DNA of 10,991 nucleotides from Methanobacteriota archaeon (GTDB taxonomy: Archaea > Thermoplasmatota > Poseidoniia > Poseidoniales > Poseidoniaceae): NCBI GenBank assembly GCA_002725275.1, contig PBOE01000012.1, positions 14,570-25,560 of the forward strand. The letters run 5' to 3'. Below the pieces are notes generated by a model. It worked only from the letters and a program-made list of their open reading frames with translations, had not been told where the DNA came from and made no database searches. Position numbers and translations under genes: made by a program. Shown here piece by piece: positions 3,895 to 10,991 of the stretch. Positions within the stretch are counted from its first letter, which is position 1, and the number at the start of each line of letters is the position of its first letter.

Positions 3895-5187
3895 TCAACC
3901 CCAGTTGCAGGGTTCCAGCACCGTCTGACCGTCCATGTAGGGCTGAAGAACGTCAGGCACAGCGACACGCCCGTCGTCCAGTTGGTACTGCTCCATGATG
4001 GCCACCAAAGCACGAGAGGTGGCCACAGCGGTCGAGTTGAGGGTGTGGACGATGGGTTGGTTGGGGTGGCCGGGTTGGCCGTATCGGATGCTCAACCGGT
4101 TGGCCTGATAGTCGGTGCAGTTGGAACACGACACGATTTCCTTGTACTGGTCGGCGCCGGGAATCCACGCTTCAAGGTCGTATTTCTTGGCGGCCACCGT
4201 GCCCATATCACCGGTGCAGATGTTGACCACCTCGTAGTGAATGCCGAGGCTGTTCCACAAGTCAACGCAGTTCTGGAGCAACTCTTCGTGGAGCGCCCAG
4301 GAGTCTTCGGGTTTTGAGATGATGATTTGTTCGATTTTGGTGAACTGGTGCACTCGCCAAATACCGAGGTCGCTCTGGCCGTGGCTCCCGACCTCACGGC
4401 GGAAACACTGGGACACGCCGACCATGCGCAGCGGCATTTGCTCTTCGGGGATGGTCTCGTCCATGTACATGGCCGTGAGCGGGTGTTCTGAGGTGGCGAT
4501 CATGTAGTACTTGTCGGGTTCAATGCCGTACATGACGGTCTCAAAGTCCCCGAGGTCGGTGACGCCTTCGTAGGCCTCCCTGTTCATCATCACGGGAGGT
4601 TGAACGAACGTGTAAGCGCGCTCACGGAGGAAGTTGACAGCGTACTGTTGCAGCGCGAATTCGAGGCGAGCCAAATCGCCTTTGAGGAAGTAGAAGCGGC
4701 TGCCCGTGATTTTGGCAGCACGCTTGAGGTCGACCCACTTGTTCATCTCGATGAGTTCGTTGTGGGTTCGTGGCTCAAAGGTGAAGGCGGGCTTGGTGCC
4801 GTGCACAGCATGAACGGTGTTGCCCGACTCGTCGGCGCCCACCGGCACGTCCTCGTGGAGGATGTTGGGGATGGACATGCGAAGCCGGTCGCGAACGGTC
4901 ATGGCCTCGTTGGTTTTGGCTTCCATCTCAGCGATTTTCGCCCCGAGGTCCGCCACCTCAGCGAGGATGGCTTCGGCAGCAGCGTGGTCTCCGGCTTTTT
5001 TGGCCGCCCCGATGCCCCGGGCGGCTTCGTTCTTGGCGCGTCGAAGCTGGTCGGTCTCGTGAAGCAAGTTGCGCCAAGCCAGGTCAAGTTCGATGACCTT
5101 GTCGATGTTGTCGTGGGGCAGGCCTCGCTTGGTGTGGTCGGCACGGACGATGTCAGCGTGTTCTCGGAACATGTTCATGTCAAGCAT
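3895..5187 (-). CDS. serS: Seryl-tRNA synthetase (type 1, class II)
   Basis: A 430-residue cytoplasmic enzyme that charges tRNA-Ser (and tRNA-Sec where present) with serine using ATP. Length and order fit the common type-1 SerRS, not the divergent methanogen type. An N-terminal MLDMNMFREH start is followed by a long charged antiparallel coiled-coil arm (about 30-100) that grips the tRNA long variable arm. The class II catalytic core then follows. TSEHPLTAMYM (232-242) is the serine/ATP region in its archaeal form, motif 2 is FRREVGSHGQSDLGIWRVHQF (start 262), and motif 3 is LNSTAVATSRALVAIMEQYQ (383-402). The ATG at 5187 is chosen: it begins the conserved family N-terminus and lies 5 bases after GGTGA. 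A GTG at 5199 would overlap the upstream gene. It is the second gene of an operon with the presenilin-type protease, 5 bp apart; the functional connection is unclear. Confidence 0.97.
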   Translation of the reverse strand: MLDMNMFREHADIVRADHTKRGLPHDNIDKVIELDLAWRNLLHETDQLRRAKNEAARGIGAAKKAGDHAAAEAILAEVADLGAKIAEMEAKTNEAMTVRDRLRMSIPNILHEDVPVGADESGNTVHAVHGTKPAFTFEPRTHNELIEMNKWVDLKRAAKITGSRFYFLKGDLARLEFALQQYAVNFLRERAYTFVQPPVMMNREAYEGVTDLGDFETVMYGIEPDKYYMIATSEHPLTAMYMDETIPEEQMPLRMVGVSQCFRREVGSHGQSDLGIWRVHQFTKIEQIIISKPEDSWALHEELLQNCVDLWNSLGIHYEVVNICTGDMGTVAAKKYDLEAWIPGADQYKEIVSCSNCTDYQANRLSIRYGQPGHPNQPIVHTLNSTAVATSRALVAIMEQYQLDDGRVAVPDVLQPYMDGQTVLEPCNWG

Positions 5188-5192
5188 AGCGA

Positions 5193-5197
5193 TCACC
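5193..5197 (-). promoter_or_regulatory. GGTGA ribosome binding site of serS, overlapping the protease stop codon
   Basis: On the minus strand GGTGA ends 5 bases before the serS ATG (5187), and its last three bases are the TGA of the protease gene. This decides the serS start and indicates coupled translation. Confidence 0.55.
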
Positions 5198-7403
5198 ACG
5201 AGATGTTGAAACTGAAAATATCGCCGCCGAGGAACAACACGCCGCCGATGAAATAACCGAGAATCGCCCCACCGTTCAGCAGCGGAAGGCCCGCCTGGGC
5301 TTTCCCACGGGCCACGTACGTCATCAACGCAAAGTAACCGGCGAGCGAGCCGACCAAGGTGGCCATGGCGACTTCAAACGCCGCGCTCGGGTCCAACCAT
5401 TGAATGGCAGAAAGCACCAGCATGCCCGGGAAAATGATGTCGCCCAAGCCCATGAACATGGCTTCACTTCGCTTCTTCTTCCCGGTCGGTCTGGCGGCGG
5501 GTTGGGTTTGCTGCTCACCGGTGATTGGCCGCTTGGCCCGTTCGGTCTCTTCAATGAGCGAATAATCGCCGTCTTGCGGTGCCACCAAGAGAATCGGGAG
5601 GCGCAAGCCCACCATGGTGTCAGCAAGGTCGAGCATGTGCTTCGATTTGTAAACGGCCCAGAAGTCGTACACTGCAGCCAGGATCATGAACAGGATGGCC
5701 AGGGGCGGCACGAAGGTTACCCCCAGCATCACGCAAACACCCGCACCGAGGAGCACGCCCGTGGTGTTCACCACGTACCATTCGCTGTGAACGAAGAGCA
5801 GGAGCAACAGCAGGGCCGTTGCGAGCAGACCGGCGATCGTGGGTCCAGCAAGGAGTTGCAGCCCGTAAATCGGGAACATGTCGGCGGTCAACTCGCCGCG
5901 TTCAATCAGCGTCGCATCGGCGGCCTCACCGGTGCTGACAGCGACCAGGTCAGCTTCGTCGCCCTCGAGGGCAAAGAACACCGTTTGGGCGTCTTCAGCC
6001 ACCGGGAAACTGGCCCGATTTACCAGCGAAGTGGTGTAGAGCCAGTGCGCTTCACCGTCGCCCGAAATGAGAAGGTCGCTGTAGCCCGATGCGTCGAGGT
6101 CCGTGATGCGGACCGAAGAGACGGTGTCGACAAGGCCGTCAAGGTTCATGCGGTCCTGGACCGCATACGCCGCCTCACCGTTGACGCTCCCGTTCCACTC
6201 CACACCGGAGACGGCCCCGCTGGATTCACCGAGCAGGATGAGGCGTTGGTGGCGGGTGTCGGGCTGTGCGCTGGCTTCCTCGATGGTTTGATTCATGAAC
6301 GGAGACCAACCGATGTCGACCGAGGTGAACGTGCCGTTGTTCACCGGAACCTGTTCCATGAGGTAGGTGGCGTTGGTGGCGGCGCCCGTGCCAAAGTCGA
6401 GCGGCGGTGAGGTGGTTTCGAGGAGAACGCTGGCGGATTGGGCGGCCGTGGCCAAGAACCACTCGTCGCTGTCCAGAAGAACGCTCTTGACGACGCCTTT
6501 GCCGGTGGAGAAGCCAGGTAGGTGCCACCGTGCTTCTTGGGTCAGCACCCCGGGGCTGTCCTCAAAGGTCCGGTATCGAATCAAATCATCGTAAGCGTTG
6601 GCGAGGTACATTGCATCCTCGGTGGACACGGCAATGGCGCAACCGCCGATCATGTTGGCCAACGGTGTGGGTTCTCCGTCCTGCCAGGTGTAGCAAGCAT
6701 AACTCTCGGTCAACTCGCCGGTGTTGATGTCGACGGACCACGCATACGCACCGGATGCGAACGTGAGTTGGTCGTTTGAGGTCGACACGCTCACGGGCGA
6801 CGCCGCATCGCTGAGTTGATGCGGGTGCGTGACCGTCCAAACGGGTTCTTCGTATTCGTTGGAGGCGTCCCAGGCCGTGATGTCCACGCTGGTGTTGAAG
6901 TCCCCTGCGCTGACGTTGTAGAGCAGGAATCCGTCCTCGCCCCACGTGTCGAGGAACACGCCGTTGCGTTCCTCTGAGGACTGAACGACGTAGGGTTCGG
7001 TATCAAAGTCGAGCACCAGCATGTGGGCGAGCGGGATCATGGTGTACAACATGGCCAACGTGAGGACCGCATACATGCCGTACTTGATGATGTACTCCTT
7101 GCCCCATCGTGCGAGGAAAATGATCAGCGCGGTGAACGCGAAGATGGCAAGGAGTTCAATCAACACGTAGCGGGCCTGGGTGGCGCCCGACGCACCGAAG
7201 GCGTGGAGTTCCCCCACGTCGTAGTAGGGGCGGATGTACATGGCGAGCGCAATGGTCGCCACGAACATCCCGGCCATGCCGGCCATGCCGCGCCACTGTT
7301 GAGTCATCAGTTCGCCGAGGCTTTCGCCCTGTCGAAGTTCATCCTCGACGTCTGCGAAGCGCTGAGAGACCTCGCGTCCCTCATCGACCTCAGCATCGCT
7401 CAT
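5193..7403 (-). CDS. Presenilin/signal-peptide-peptidase-type intramembrane aspartyl protease with large ectodomain
   Basis: A 736-residue polytopic membrane protein of the archaeal presenilin-homologue family (GxGD proteases, Pfam SPP_2 type). Members cleave transmembrane segments of substrate proteins inside the membrane. Nine helices are predicted: about 42-58, 78-98, 109-130, 514-538, 544-563, 566-584, 651-670, 677-696, 706-726. Catalytic Asp580 sits in the YD motif of helix 6 and Asp655 in GLGD of helix 7; PLL (707-709, in GLPLLNGGAILGY) is the PxL motif of helix 9. Basic loops between helices 2-3, 6-7 and 8-9 put the N-terminus inside, so the insert between helices 3 and 4 (about 133-510) faces out. 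That insert is beta-rich, with a PQQ-like piece (AWSVDINTGEL) and an FG-GAP-like piece (ITDLDASGYSDLLISGDG), two cysteines (237, 255) and six N-glycosylation sequons. Typical archaeal relatives are around 300 residues. The ATG at 7403 is preferred for the TATA-like sequence 29 bp upstream; an ATG at 7427 would add eight residues. Substrate unknown. Confidence 0.88.
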   Translation of the reverse strand: MSDAEVDEGREVSQRFADVEDELRQGESLGELMTQQWRGMAGMAGMFVATIALAMYIRPYYDVGELHAFGASGATQARYVLIELLAIFAFTALIIFLARWGKEYIIKYGMYAVLTLAMLYTMIPLAHMLVLDFDTEPYVVQSSEERNGVFLDTWGEDGFLLYNVSAGDFNTSVDITAWDASNEYEEPVWTVTHPHQLSDAASPVSVSTSNDQLTFASGAYAWSVDINTGELTESYACYTWQDGEPTPLANMIGGCAIAVSTEDAMYLANAYDDLIRYRTFEDSPGVLTQEARWHLPGFSTGKGVVKSVLLDSDEWFLATAAQSASVLLETTSPPLDFGTGAATNATYLMEQVPVNNGTFTSVDIGWSPFMNQTIEEASAQPDTRHQRLILLGESSGAVSGVEWNGSVNGEAAYAVQDRMNLDGLVDTVSSVRITDLDASGYSDLLISGDGEAHWLYTTSLVNRASFPVAEDAQTVFFALEGDEADLVAVSTGEAADATLIERGELTADMFPIYGLQLLAGPTIAGLLATALLLLLLFVHSEWYVVNTTGVLLGAGVCVMLGVTFVPPLAILFMILAAVYDFWAVYKSKHMLDLADTMVGLRLPILLVAPQDGDYSLIEETERAKRPITGEQQTQPAARPTGKKKRSEAMFMGLGDIIFPGMLVLSAIQWLDPSAAFEVAMATLVGSLAGYFALMTYVARGKAQAGLPLLNGGAILGYFIGGVLFLGGDIFSFNISW

Positions 7404-7424
7404 GGTGGGGCCAACCCCCTCTTC

Positions 7425-7432
7425 CATATCAG
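7425..7432 (-). promoter_or_regulatory. TATA-like box of the presenilin-type protease gene
   Basis: On the minus strand CTGATATG begins 29 bp before the ATG at 7403. It matches 6 of 8 positions of the TTGATATA boxes at 1942 and 3118, at the same distance. If real, the alternative ATG at 7427 falls inside the promoter and is not used. Weaker than the two plus-strand boxes. Confidence 0.35.
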
Positions 7433-7474: not shown

Positions 7475-8782
7475 ATGGAGAAGGGACGGCCGTTCGCCCA
7501 CATGGTGGAGGCGGTGAGCGCACGAGCGTGGCTTGAATCCACCAAGGAAAGGGGCATGGCGCTGGGCCTCGAGCACACGGCCCGAGCCATCGAGGCGCTT
7601 GGACTGCCGGCACCGACCTACGAAACCGTCCACGTGGCGGGCAGCAACGGCAAGGGCACGACCGTGGCTGCGCTCGGGAGCGCCCTCCACCGCATCGGTT
7701 GCCGCCATCTCTCGTTCACCTCCCCGCATCTCGTTCGCGTGGAAGAGCGGGTTCGTCTTGACGGGCGACCGGTGTCGACCGCTGTCTTCGACGCAGCCCT
7801 AGCTGACGTTCACGCCATGGCCGCACGCACCGGGCTCTCCTTGACCTTCTTCGAAGTGACCTTGCTGGTGGCGCTGGTCGTGGCTGCGGACCAACGTCCC
7901 GACGTGCTCGTGTTGGAAACCGGGCTGGGCGGTCGATTGGACGCCACGCGCGCCGTGCCCGCCGACCTCGCCATCATCACCTCGCTCAGCCTCGAACACA
8001 CCGATGTTCTGGGCGGGACCTTGGAGGCCATCGCCGCCGAAAAGGCGGCCATTGCTCGCCCAATGAAACCGATGTTTGTCCGGGACGTTGCGGACCAGAG
8101 TGCCCGTCGCTCCATCCAACGCGCAGCCGACGACGCCGGCAACCCTGAGATCGGTGAACAGCCTGCACCCGCCCAGCTCCACTGGGTCGAGATTGAGCCT
8201 GAGGCGGACTACTTCGATGAGGCCCGAGCAATGGCAGCGGCGGCTTGGGGTTCGCTCACATGCGCGGAGAAGACGAAGTTCCCAAATTTCCGCGGACTGC
8301 ACTGGCCGGGAAGAATGCACGAAGTCGTCCGGGCCGGTTCAGGTCAGCGGTGGCTTCTGGAAGGCGCCCACAACCCCAGCGGGATGGAAACTTCGTGCCG
8401 GGCGCTGCAGCGCGACGAGCGATGGAAGAACCCGTGGGCCCTGTTGTTCGGAAGCACGCCCCAAGCCGAGATGGGCGCCATGCTGGAACCGCTGGTCAAC
8501 CTTTGTCGCCGCCACCCACCCGTCGCCATCGTGCTCACCGAACCTCAATTTGGACGCTACCCCGGTGTGCCTTGCACGGAACTCGCGGGCGCGCTCGCTC
8601 GGCACGATCTCCAGATCAGCGCGTCGTTCGCCAACCCTCAAGAAGCGGTGGCGTGGGTCGAAGCGCAGTCCTCGACCCTCACCGACGTGTTGTGCATCGG
8701 TTCACTCTATCTCGCAGGCAACGTCCTTCAGGCCCTCGGTGCAGACGATGACGAAGCCCTTTCCATCGTGGCGAAGGACTGA
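7475..8782 (+). CDS. folC: Folylpolyglutamate / dihydrofolate synthase (Mur ligase family)
   Basis: A 435-residue cytoplasmic ATP-dependent ligase that adds glutamate to folates (and, in bifunctional members, to dihydropteroate). Visible Mur-ligase motifs: P-loop HVAGSNGKGTT (53-63), FTSPHLVRVEERV (81-93), ETGLGGRLDATRAV (148-161), then SLSLEHTDVLGGTLEAIAAE (170-189) followed by Lys190, the position of the carbamylated lysine. Further motifs are WPGRMHEV (277-284) and EGAHNPSGM (296-304), the latter with Glu where Asp is usual. Length fits the family. The first ATG is taken because of GAGGA eight bases upstream; ATG at 7502 would also keep the whole domain. Folate polyglutamylation rather than the coenzyme F420 gamma-glutamyl route is inferred from similarity. 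A dCMP deaminase-like gene starts 35 bp downstream, so the pair may serve thymidylate synthesis. It is divergent from the protease gene. Confidence 0.93.
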   Translation: MEKGRPFAHMVEAVSARAWLESTKERGMALGLEHTARAIEALGLPAPTYETVHVAGSNGKGTTVAALGSALHRIGCRHLSFTSPHLVRVEERVRLDGRPVSTAVFDAALADVHAMAARTGLSLTFFEVTLLVALVVAADQRPDVLVLETGLGGRLDATRAVPADLAIITSLSLEHTDVLGGTLEAIAAEKAAIARPMKPMFVRDVADQSARRSIQRAADDAGNPEIGEQPAPAQLHWVEIEPEADYFDEARAMAAAAWGSLTCAEKTKFPNFRGLHWPGRMHEVVRAGSGQRWLLEGAHNPSGMETSCRALQRDERWKNPWALLFGSTPQAEMGAMLEPLVNLCRRHPPVAIVLTEPQFGRYPGVPCTELAGALARHDLQISASFANPQEAVAWVEAQSSTLTDVLCIGSLYLAGNVLQALGADDDEALSIVAKD

Positions 8783-9326: not shown

Positions 9327-10991
9327 TCAGGGGGTGTAGTTGATGAACATGAAGATGCCAAAAAGGAAAATGAACAGCGGGACGATGAAGATCTCAAACA
9401 GGGATCGGTTCGTTGACAGCACGTCCATCTCCGTCCCGTAGTGCAACACCGTGGCGTCACCCGTCCCCGTCGTGGGGACCATCGTCAACAGCGCTTGAGC
9501 CAACGTTTCATCGCTGCCCCACTTCTGAAGGTGGTCGGCGTCGCGAGGAACGCAGTCACCCAGGATGTAAACCGGGTCGCCGATGCCCAGCCCGACCAGG
9601 TTCCACTTCCAATCGCCTCGCTGCCAAGAGTCGAGGACGGGGCCGTAATCAATCGGCTTCTTGGCCCAAAGTGCCGGGTCGATGAGCATCCCGCCCGAAC
9701 CGTCGTGAATCATGAACGGTACGCCGCCCTCCCTCGTTTCCCGGTGCTCCCATGAACAGTGAGTGTCGCCGTCCGAATCGGTTCGACAGACGTACTGATA
9801 CGACTTCCACTGCCAAGCGCTCAAGCCCTTGTGCGTTCGGCCCCCAACGGACATTTCCGGCGTTCCGGCGATTGAGGGTCGGACTTGACCGACGAGTTCA
9901 GCTTGTCCGACAGCCACGCTTCGGATGGGCGACGTGGGGAGGTCTCGAATCAACCGGTTCAACTTGAACTGCTTCCATGCACTACGGAACCAGAGGAGGT
10001 TGATGACGGACACGACGAGGGTCATCACCCACCCAACCGTGGTGTGAAAGTCGGACCCGTCCCTCGCTCTCAGGTCGGCTGAAAGCCAAATGAACGAGGT
10101 GGCGAACACCACGGCACCGAGGCTGTAAGGGGTGATCAACGCGGCTTTTGGGGTCCCGATGTTGTTGGGATGCTCTCGTATGAGACGCCCCCCTTCGTCG
10201 CCAGCGTAGGGGTCATCAAAGTTCGTGGGCACAGGTGCTCCGAACAACCAGTCATCTTCGGAAGAGCGAGTCGGGCGGTCGGCGTAGGGCAGCGGCGTGA
10301 AATTCGGTCCAAAGTGCGGAAACATTCGTCCGCTTGAACCGAGCACGCCGGGCGCCGAGGAGATGTCCTTCACCGCCGAACGGTTGGCCTTGCGAATCTT
10401 GCGAAGGCTGTCCAGCAGCGGAGGCGACGTGCTGTACATGAAAATCAAGCCGGCGAGACCGGTGTTGAGCAAGGCCCAACGGCCGCGGTCTTCCCGCTGC
10501 GTGACCTCTTGAGGGTCGTTGGTTGGGTTGTTGAGGTTCCTGATTTCCTTCACCGACAGCAGCTGGTGGCGAGGCGGATTCTCCTCCACCAGAACAAAGG
10601 CATTGAACAGGAAATTGTCGCCCCCGATGCCGTCGCCTGCGATGGTTCGGGACCATTCACTGCCGCACGCAGGGTCGTCCATTTCACCTTCTGGAGAGAG
10701 CGACCCTTCCAGGGAAAACGCCGCTTGAATCACCGTGCCTTCGGCGTCCACCATGGTCAGCGGTTGGGCGTCCTCCATGTAGAAACCATAATCCCAGCTC
10801 CCCCCACCTTCGTCGTCGTCGTTCCACTTACATTCATCGTAGGCCAGGGTCCCTTCGACCAATTCAAGGGGCACCAAGATAAAGGCGGCTTGATCGGCGT
10901 ATTCGTCGCTGTCATAACCGTCCTGCAGCGGTCCGTATTCGTAAGCAGCCATGTCCTCGTAAAGGTAAGGCAGAACGGTGGCCTCCTCCAC
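9327..10991 (-). CDS. Membrane protein with GIDE/BAM domain, no RING finger (5' end outside window)
   Basis: The last 554 residues of a larger membrane protein; the frame is still open at the window edge, so its start is not seen. Residues 1-165 are acidic, soluble and probably extracytoplasmic. Predicted helices lie at about 172-190, 283-304, 317-337 and 531-550 (the C-terminal end). Between the last two, residues 349-500 match the GIDE domain, also called BAM, of MUL1/MAPL-type proteins. It opens with RDLPTSPIRSVAVGQAELVG (349-368), has a Trp/Tyr strand (WQWKSYQYVC) and FMIHDGSGGMLIDP (426-439), and ends with DPVYILGDC. Basic residues after the third helix suggest the domain faces the cytoplasm. 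MUL1 also places this domain between two helices but adds a cytosolic RING; none is present here, so a ubiquitin ligase role should not be assumed. The function of prokaryotic GIDE/BAM proteins is unknown to me. Convergent with the deaminase gene. Confidence 0.7.
   Translation of the reverse strand: MEEATVLPYLYEDMAAYEYGPLQDGYDSDEYADQAAFILVPLELVEGTLAYDECKWNDDDEGGGSWDYGFYMEDAQPLTMVDAEGTVIQAAFSLEGSLSPEGEMDDPACGSEWSRTIAGDGIGGDNFLFNAFVLVEENPPRHQLLSVKEIRNLNNPTNDPQEVTQREDRGRWALLNTGLAGLIFMYSTSPPLLDSLRKIRKANRSAVKDISSAPGVLGSSGRMFPHFGPNFTPLPYADRPTRSSEDDWLFGAPVPTNFDDPYAGDEGGRLIREHPNNIGTPKAALITPYSLGAVVFATSFIWLSADLRARDGSDFHTTVGWVMTLVVSVINLLWFRSAWKQFKLNRLIRDLPTSPIRSVAVGQAELVGQVRPSIAGTPEMSVGGRTHKGLSAWQWKSYQYVCRTDSDGDTHCSWEHRETREGGVPFMIHDGSGGMLIDPALWAKKPIDYGPVLDSWQRGDWKWNLVGLGIGDPVYILGDCVPRDADHLQKWGSDETLAQALLTMVPTTGTGDATVLHYGTEMDVLSTNRSLFEIFIVPLFIFLFGIFMFINYTP

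Follow-up and report, generated by a model that had tools for sequence, protein, structure and literature searches.

The window, i.e. the whole stretch of 10,991 nucleotides that was analysed, carries at 5193..7403 a minus-strand gene that runs from an ATG at 7403 to its last base at 5193 and encodes a PSH-type (presenilin-like) intramembrane aspartyl protease of 736 aa with a propeller insert. The preliminary description had placed the gene at these positions; the coding strand is the minus strand, and stops interrupt plus-strand frame 1 across the same interval. An alternative in-frame ATG at 7427, 24 bases upstream, could give a 744 aa product, and similar 8-residue starts in relatives such as P0041, P0092 and P0254 point to a possible N-terminal extension at 7404..7427 on the same strand. 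Two neighbours outside the protease serve as syntenic markers. The seryl-tRNA synthetase gene serS (3895..5199, minus strand, starting with GTG at 5199 or ATG at 5187) lies directly downstream, and a Mur-ligase/folC-like gene (7475..8782, plus strand) is the divergent upstream neighbour. Among the best 80 of 293 confirmed relatives in species genomes, serS is downstream on the same strand in all 80 loci and a relative of the folC-like gene is present in 77, reversed in four of them (L035, L043, L046 and L052). Farther along the window, an open reading frame on the minus strand (9327-10991, 554 aa or longer) has a relative in 18 of the 80 protease loci and no Pfam match at 1e-3.

Membership of the PSH family follows from profile scores, motifs and predicted helices. 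Pfam places PF06550 on residues 522-723 with 153.7 bits (cut-off 23.9), and NF041679, 'presenilin family intramembrane aspartyl protease PSH', scores 201.2 bits against a cut-off of 125. Residues 515-723 align with the solved PSH 4hyc (1.9e-28), which we take to be MCMJR1. On the minus strand, the YD motif (Y579 and catalytic D580, TM6) is encoded at 5664..5669, the GLGD motif (residues 652-655 with catalytic D655, TM7) at 5439..5450 and the PAL-type PLL motif (residues 707-709, TM9) at 5277..5285, exactly as previously assigned; the first two motifs are also supported by the 4hyc alignment. Y579, D580, G652, D655 and P707 are invariant in 50/50 aligned homologues. With the profiles, the motifs and both aspartates in place, the protein looks like an active PSH, as had been proposed, and propeller-PSH is probably proteolytic as judged from its sequence.

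Nine long hydrophobic helices with the N-terminus inside are predicted from the structural model and the charge pattern. TM1-TM3 comprise residues 29-132 (7008..7319, minus strand), where the short-PSH profile matches 33-132, and the TM4-TM9 catalytic core comprises residues 519-730 (5214..5849, minus strand), as delimited by PF06550, the 4hyc alignment and the model. A hydropathy scan yields nine windows as well, of which seven match model helices, one runs across TM5/TM6 and one lies at 590-608, so that the nine helices of the preliminary description are retained with agreement for seven. Loops rich in K/R lie on the side predicted as inner, and the segment between the model helices at 131-518 has 60 D/E against 12 K/R; the positive-inside rule, already invoked for this segment, thus predicts an outer location for the insert. 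Sequons (N-X-S/T) are more frequent in the 50 inserts (302) than in shuffled sequences (mean 147), but they add little weight to that location because the controls also exceed their shuffles: 175 against 114 in the cytosolic serS (1.53-fold, 71 sequences), 13 against 8.3 in the cytoplasmic tail and loop, and 90 against 13.3 in the membrane core (6.8-fold). Since the open frames of the listed insert-free homologues are mostly 280-380 aa, the 736 aa are about 2.4 times the usual length, in line with the earlier estimate of more than twice.

The additional length is a beta-propeller ectodomain at residues 135-511 (5871..7001, minus strand), predicted to be outside on the combined basis of the model, Foldseek, the charge pattern and the break in the short-PSH profile. 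This break occurs at position 113 of 314 in the short-homologue profile, i.e. between TM3 and TM4, where the insertion had been proposed. The insert is modelled as all-beta, pLDDT being 82-96 in 36 of the 37 ten-residue blocks that span 141-510 and 60 in the remaining one, and its top matches among solved structures are beta-propellers; the 50 listed Foldseek matches comprise diverse propellers at 8-13% identity. A folded ectodomain, and specifically a propeller, is therefore predicted with high confidence, and the strand count of the model suggests seven blades. The full model has a pTM of 0.65, with blocks of 521-730 at pLDDT 41-88 and the minimum in the TM6-TM7 loop, so that its placement of the propeller relative to the membrane domain is tentative; the fold searches hardly tested the membrane part because propellers filled the match lists. 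Taken as a whole, we are highly confident of the anatomy of a protease core with a built-in outer propeller.

The proposed PQQ-like and FG-GAP-like segments fared unequally. Pfam gives no match in the insert and no PQQ or FG-GAP repeats in the whole protein up to E 1, so PQQ repeats have no Pfam support, and the window protein likewise has no FG-GAP/VCBS repeats at that threshold, whereas P0131 from another lineage has PF13517 and PF01839 over cut-off. What stands is a single FG-GAP-like calcium-loop motif, DLDASGYSD at residues 435-443 (6075..6101, minus strand), conserved among 50 homologues with D435 and D443 in 50/50, D437 in 46/50 and G440 in 48/50, although it is not kept by all of 11 diverse deeper Poseidoniia inserts. 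This loop may bind calcium. Cys255 (6639..6641, minus strand) and Cys237 (6693-6695) both occur in 50/50 homologues, and Cys255 in 11/11 of the more diverse inserts, suggesting a possible disulphide between them. Overall, the major-residue fraction among the 50 homologues is 0.85-0.87 in the membrane parts and 0.57 in the insert, whose best-kept stretches (387-402, 419-466 and 499-514, the last being the link to TM4) reach 0.69-0.76. The cytoplasmic TM6-TM7 loop, at 0.63, is nearly as variable as the insert. Across the 63 Poseidoniia inserts measured, the length is 334-405 aa.

An insert of this size could in principle derive from a neighbouring gene through misassembly or a frameshift. The architecture is, however, recurrent: in 99/106 database homologues the alignment takes in 94% or more of the query, and the insert is spanned in 80/80 loci, the best 80 of 293, whose specific record titles are Poseidonia, Poseidoniaceae or Poseidoniales and which include L007, L040 and L042, not titled as MAG. 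Judging by these named relatives, the window would come from a marine archaeon of the Poseidoniales (marine group II). Together with the conserved folC-like and serS neighbours, these observations lead us to reject an artefact, whose probability we regard as negligible; the relatives whose absence would have spoken for a misassembled neighbour are in fact widespread. P0049, named PSH by NCBI, is also insert-bearing, and the name PSH therefore spans at least two very different architectures.

A broader search for PSH homologues gave 624 matches, 120 of them among the matches listed, and a class-level survey was centred on genome G001 (the Poseidonia record of L011), in whose class 300/339 genomes have a match, 288 of them over cut-off. 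Size classes were counted by eye in the roughly 150 best-scoring matches among those listed. About 11 are insert-free with frames of 283-337 aa, about 85 have an unbroken or nearly unbroken profile with frames of 289-496 aa, and about 54 match with the C-terminal part only, in frames mostly of 684-902 aa. All seven of the middle-sized propeller-free genes examined are flanked by folC and serS, like the window gene, while neither marker was found around the three small insert-free genes examined; among 19 long class members, folC is present in 19 and serS in 18, the contig ending in the remaining one. No insert-like ORF was found with five insert HMMs beside insert-free PSH in the 10 loci L189-L198. 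We would guess that the middle-sized group corresponds to marine group IIb. Two insert-free PSH frames of middle size, 390 aa and 388 aa long, occur in genome G146 (contigs C45 and C43), reflecting either duplication or a mixed bin.

In an 81-row tree, the middle-sized group forms one clade (100/90), and a 100/100 group holds this clade together with the long Poseidoniia proteins, which as a clade of their own receive 66/90 support only. The same-locus gene of a sister group within this class lacks the propeller, a point that the preliminary description did not contain, and because that sister group keeps the gene, the catalytic core persists without the propeller. The insert state changes at least four times on either of two trees. 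A single clade of all 47 insert-bearers is rejected by the AU test (p 2.5e-7, under one model and for a group picked after the first tree). Gain and loss of the insert are inseparable on these trees.

The origin of the propeller was approached by comparing a 63-sequence profile of the Poseidoniia propeller with other propellers. The match to T3, from another lineage, reaches 81.8% but covers a single blade and is off register; that to T5 reaches 48% over 47 columns and is approximately in register, an argument for shared ancestry with the other-lineage propeller, and T1, T2, T4 and T6 give 0.1-8.1%. A rotation scan of the Poseidoniia and T3 pair ranks the in-register frame 6 of 48, which says little because in the sole positive control, T1 against T3, rotation 0 ranks 12 of 45 and lies on a plateau. 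A search with the insert profile returned 37 matches, 24 with PF06550. The other 13, read by eye, all look like PSH frames that are partial, truncated or chimeric, nine with a PSH N-terminus and four starting inside the propeller, and the search thus gave no sign of a free-standing propeller that could be the source or partner of the insert; remote propellers would escape this search since it needs shared words. As to a viral origin, the pattern had no match in viral_contigs. As a tentative scenario, which we consider possible rather than probable, the TM3-TM4 loop of Thermoplasmatota PSH would have taken up propellers at least twice at the same position: one of FG-GAP type, present in several lineages, and another in Poseidoniia that is either unrelated or too diverged to be recognised. 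The result would be a modular, swappable substrate gate within one chain, an archaeal answer to the nicastrin problem, with a sister group that lacks or lost the propeller at the same locus.

Other inserts were seen along the way. P0213, P0214, P0215 and P0216 carry theirs, of 114-125 residues, in the outer loop TM7-TM8 rather than between TM3 and TM4; that of P0213 appears PKD-like by eye, and Pfam gives no such match in P0213 or P0216. P0155, P0219 and P0224 have TM3-TM4 inserts of 187, 277 and 345 residues without a Pfam propeller match, the first being apparently too short for a seven-bladed propeller. As a separate observation, 4/6 genomes searched have their oligosaccharyltransferase match (STT3/AglB-type, PF02516) within one open frame of 3147-3237 aa. 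PF02516 frames are located at L201:3387-12938 (+) and L202:1142-10576 (+) and also in G002, G540 and G398, the frame being 2365 aa long in G398 and, close to the end of a contig, 605 aa in G003. The L201 and L202 frames carry STT3 at residues of about 390-750 and, around residue 2500, a CarboxypepD_reg match; in L201 a CARDB match lies close to the end of the frame, and a subtilase gene follows immediately downstream.

What the propeller does can be approached by analogy with gamma-secretase. The propeller would sit in the predicted outer TM3-TM4 loop, on the same side as nicastrin; the core would cut and the ectodomain would select, and the likeliest role of the propeller would be to control the access of membrane proteins to the two aspartates, either by keeping out large ectodomains sterically or by binding the external portions of substrates, or both. 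The near-fixed membrane parts, the drifting insert and the propeller-free sister locus fit such a cutting core with a selecting ectodomain, and we give substrate selection or gating by the propeller an even chance. The fast divergence of the insert would also fit a decoration with little function, and the insert-free sister group means that the job of the propeller is not shared by all or is carried out there by other means. Propellers commonly serve as binding platforms, and this one might instead bind an external ligand, a glycan, calcium or a partner and thereby switch or localise the protease. In favour of such a sensor or docking module, the FG-GAP-like loop, with D435 and D443 in 50/50 homologues, lies within the best conserved insert stretch 419-466, but the insert is variable overall and its more diverse Poseidoniia members do not all keep the loop; we regard this reading as possible but less likely than gating.

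It is unlikely, in our judgement, that the propeller is a weakly constrained addition serving at most as a shield or spacer, in a TM3-TM4 loop that tolerates insertions and captured propellers repeatedly. The repeated changes of insert state on either tree, the sequence divergence and the inserts in the TM7-TM8 outer loop of P0213-P0216 would be expected in that case, but a neutral domain of such size should presumably decay, whereas the length is held within 334-405 aa and the cysteine pair is kept in all 50 closer homologues. Still more improbable is a fusion of the protease with a propeller that is itself an enzyme, e.g. of lyase or dehydrogenase type: the propeller lyase 7esl appears among the Foldseek matches, but at rank 46 of the 50 listed, which are scattered over diverse propellers at low identity, and the insert has no Pfam match.

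Presenilin is the membrane-cutting enzyme of Alzheimer's disease, and the substrate choice of presenilin-type proteases is still poorly understood and difficult to study in gamma-secretase with its four subunits. With protease and ectodomain in one chain, and with genes with and without the ectodomain at the same locus, the idea of an ectodomain gate becomes directly testable. The propeller-PSH architecture and its with/without distribution are new. We know of no propeller-bearing presenilin homologue, and no description of one was found in the literature searched (titles and abstract starts, with few subscription journals and no bioRxiv).

Among soluble serine-type proteases, as opposed to intramembrane ones, prolyl oligopeptidase and tricorn use a propeller to limit access. 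The archaeal PSH/MCMJR1 (PDB 4hyc, 4hyd, 4hyg, 4y6k) shares the family, the YD and GxGD motifs and an alignable TM4-TM9 with the window protein, but its 301-residue chain lacks the insert of about 380 residues; the Methanoculleus marisnigri enzyme MCMJR1 cleaves without protein co-factors (PMC2947513). Gamma-secretase (presenilin and nicastrin) has in common the catalytic core family and a large outer-side ectodomain, which is there a separate subunit said to exclude bulky substrates or large ectodomains (PMC6551803), whereas the propeller is inserted within the protease chain. The comparison with nicastrin drawn earlier must be amended, because the eukaryotic SPPL2a/b/c, likewise GxGD proteases, already have a built-in luminal ectodomain: an N-terminal PA domain reported to affect substrate recognition (PMC12043953). 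In the window protein, just 28 residues precede TM1, with no PA domain there in Pfam up to E 1, and the ectodomain is a propeller between TM3 and TM4. The site-2 protease RseP, a metalloprotease unrelated to the PSH family, similarly carries its ectodomain, a PDZ tandem, between two TM segments, and these PDZ domains are described as a size-exclusion filter (PMC7728848).
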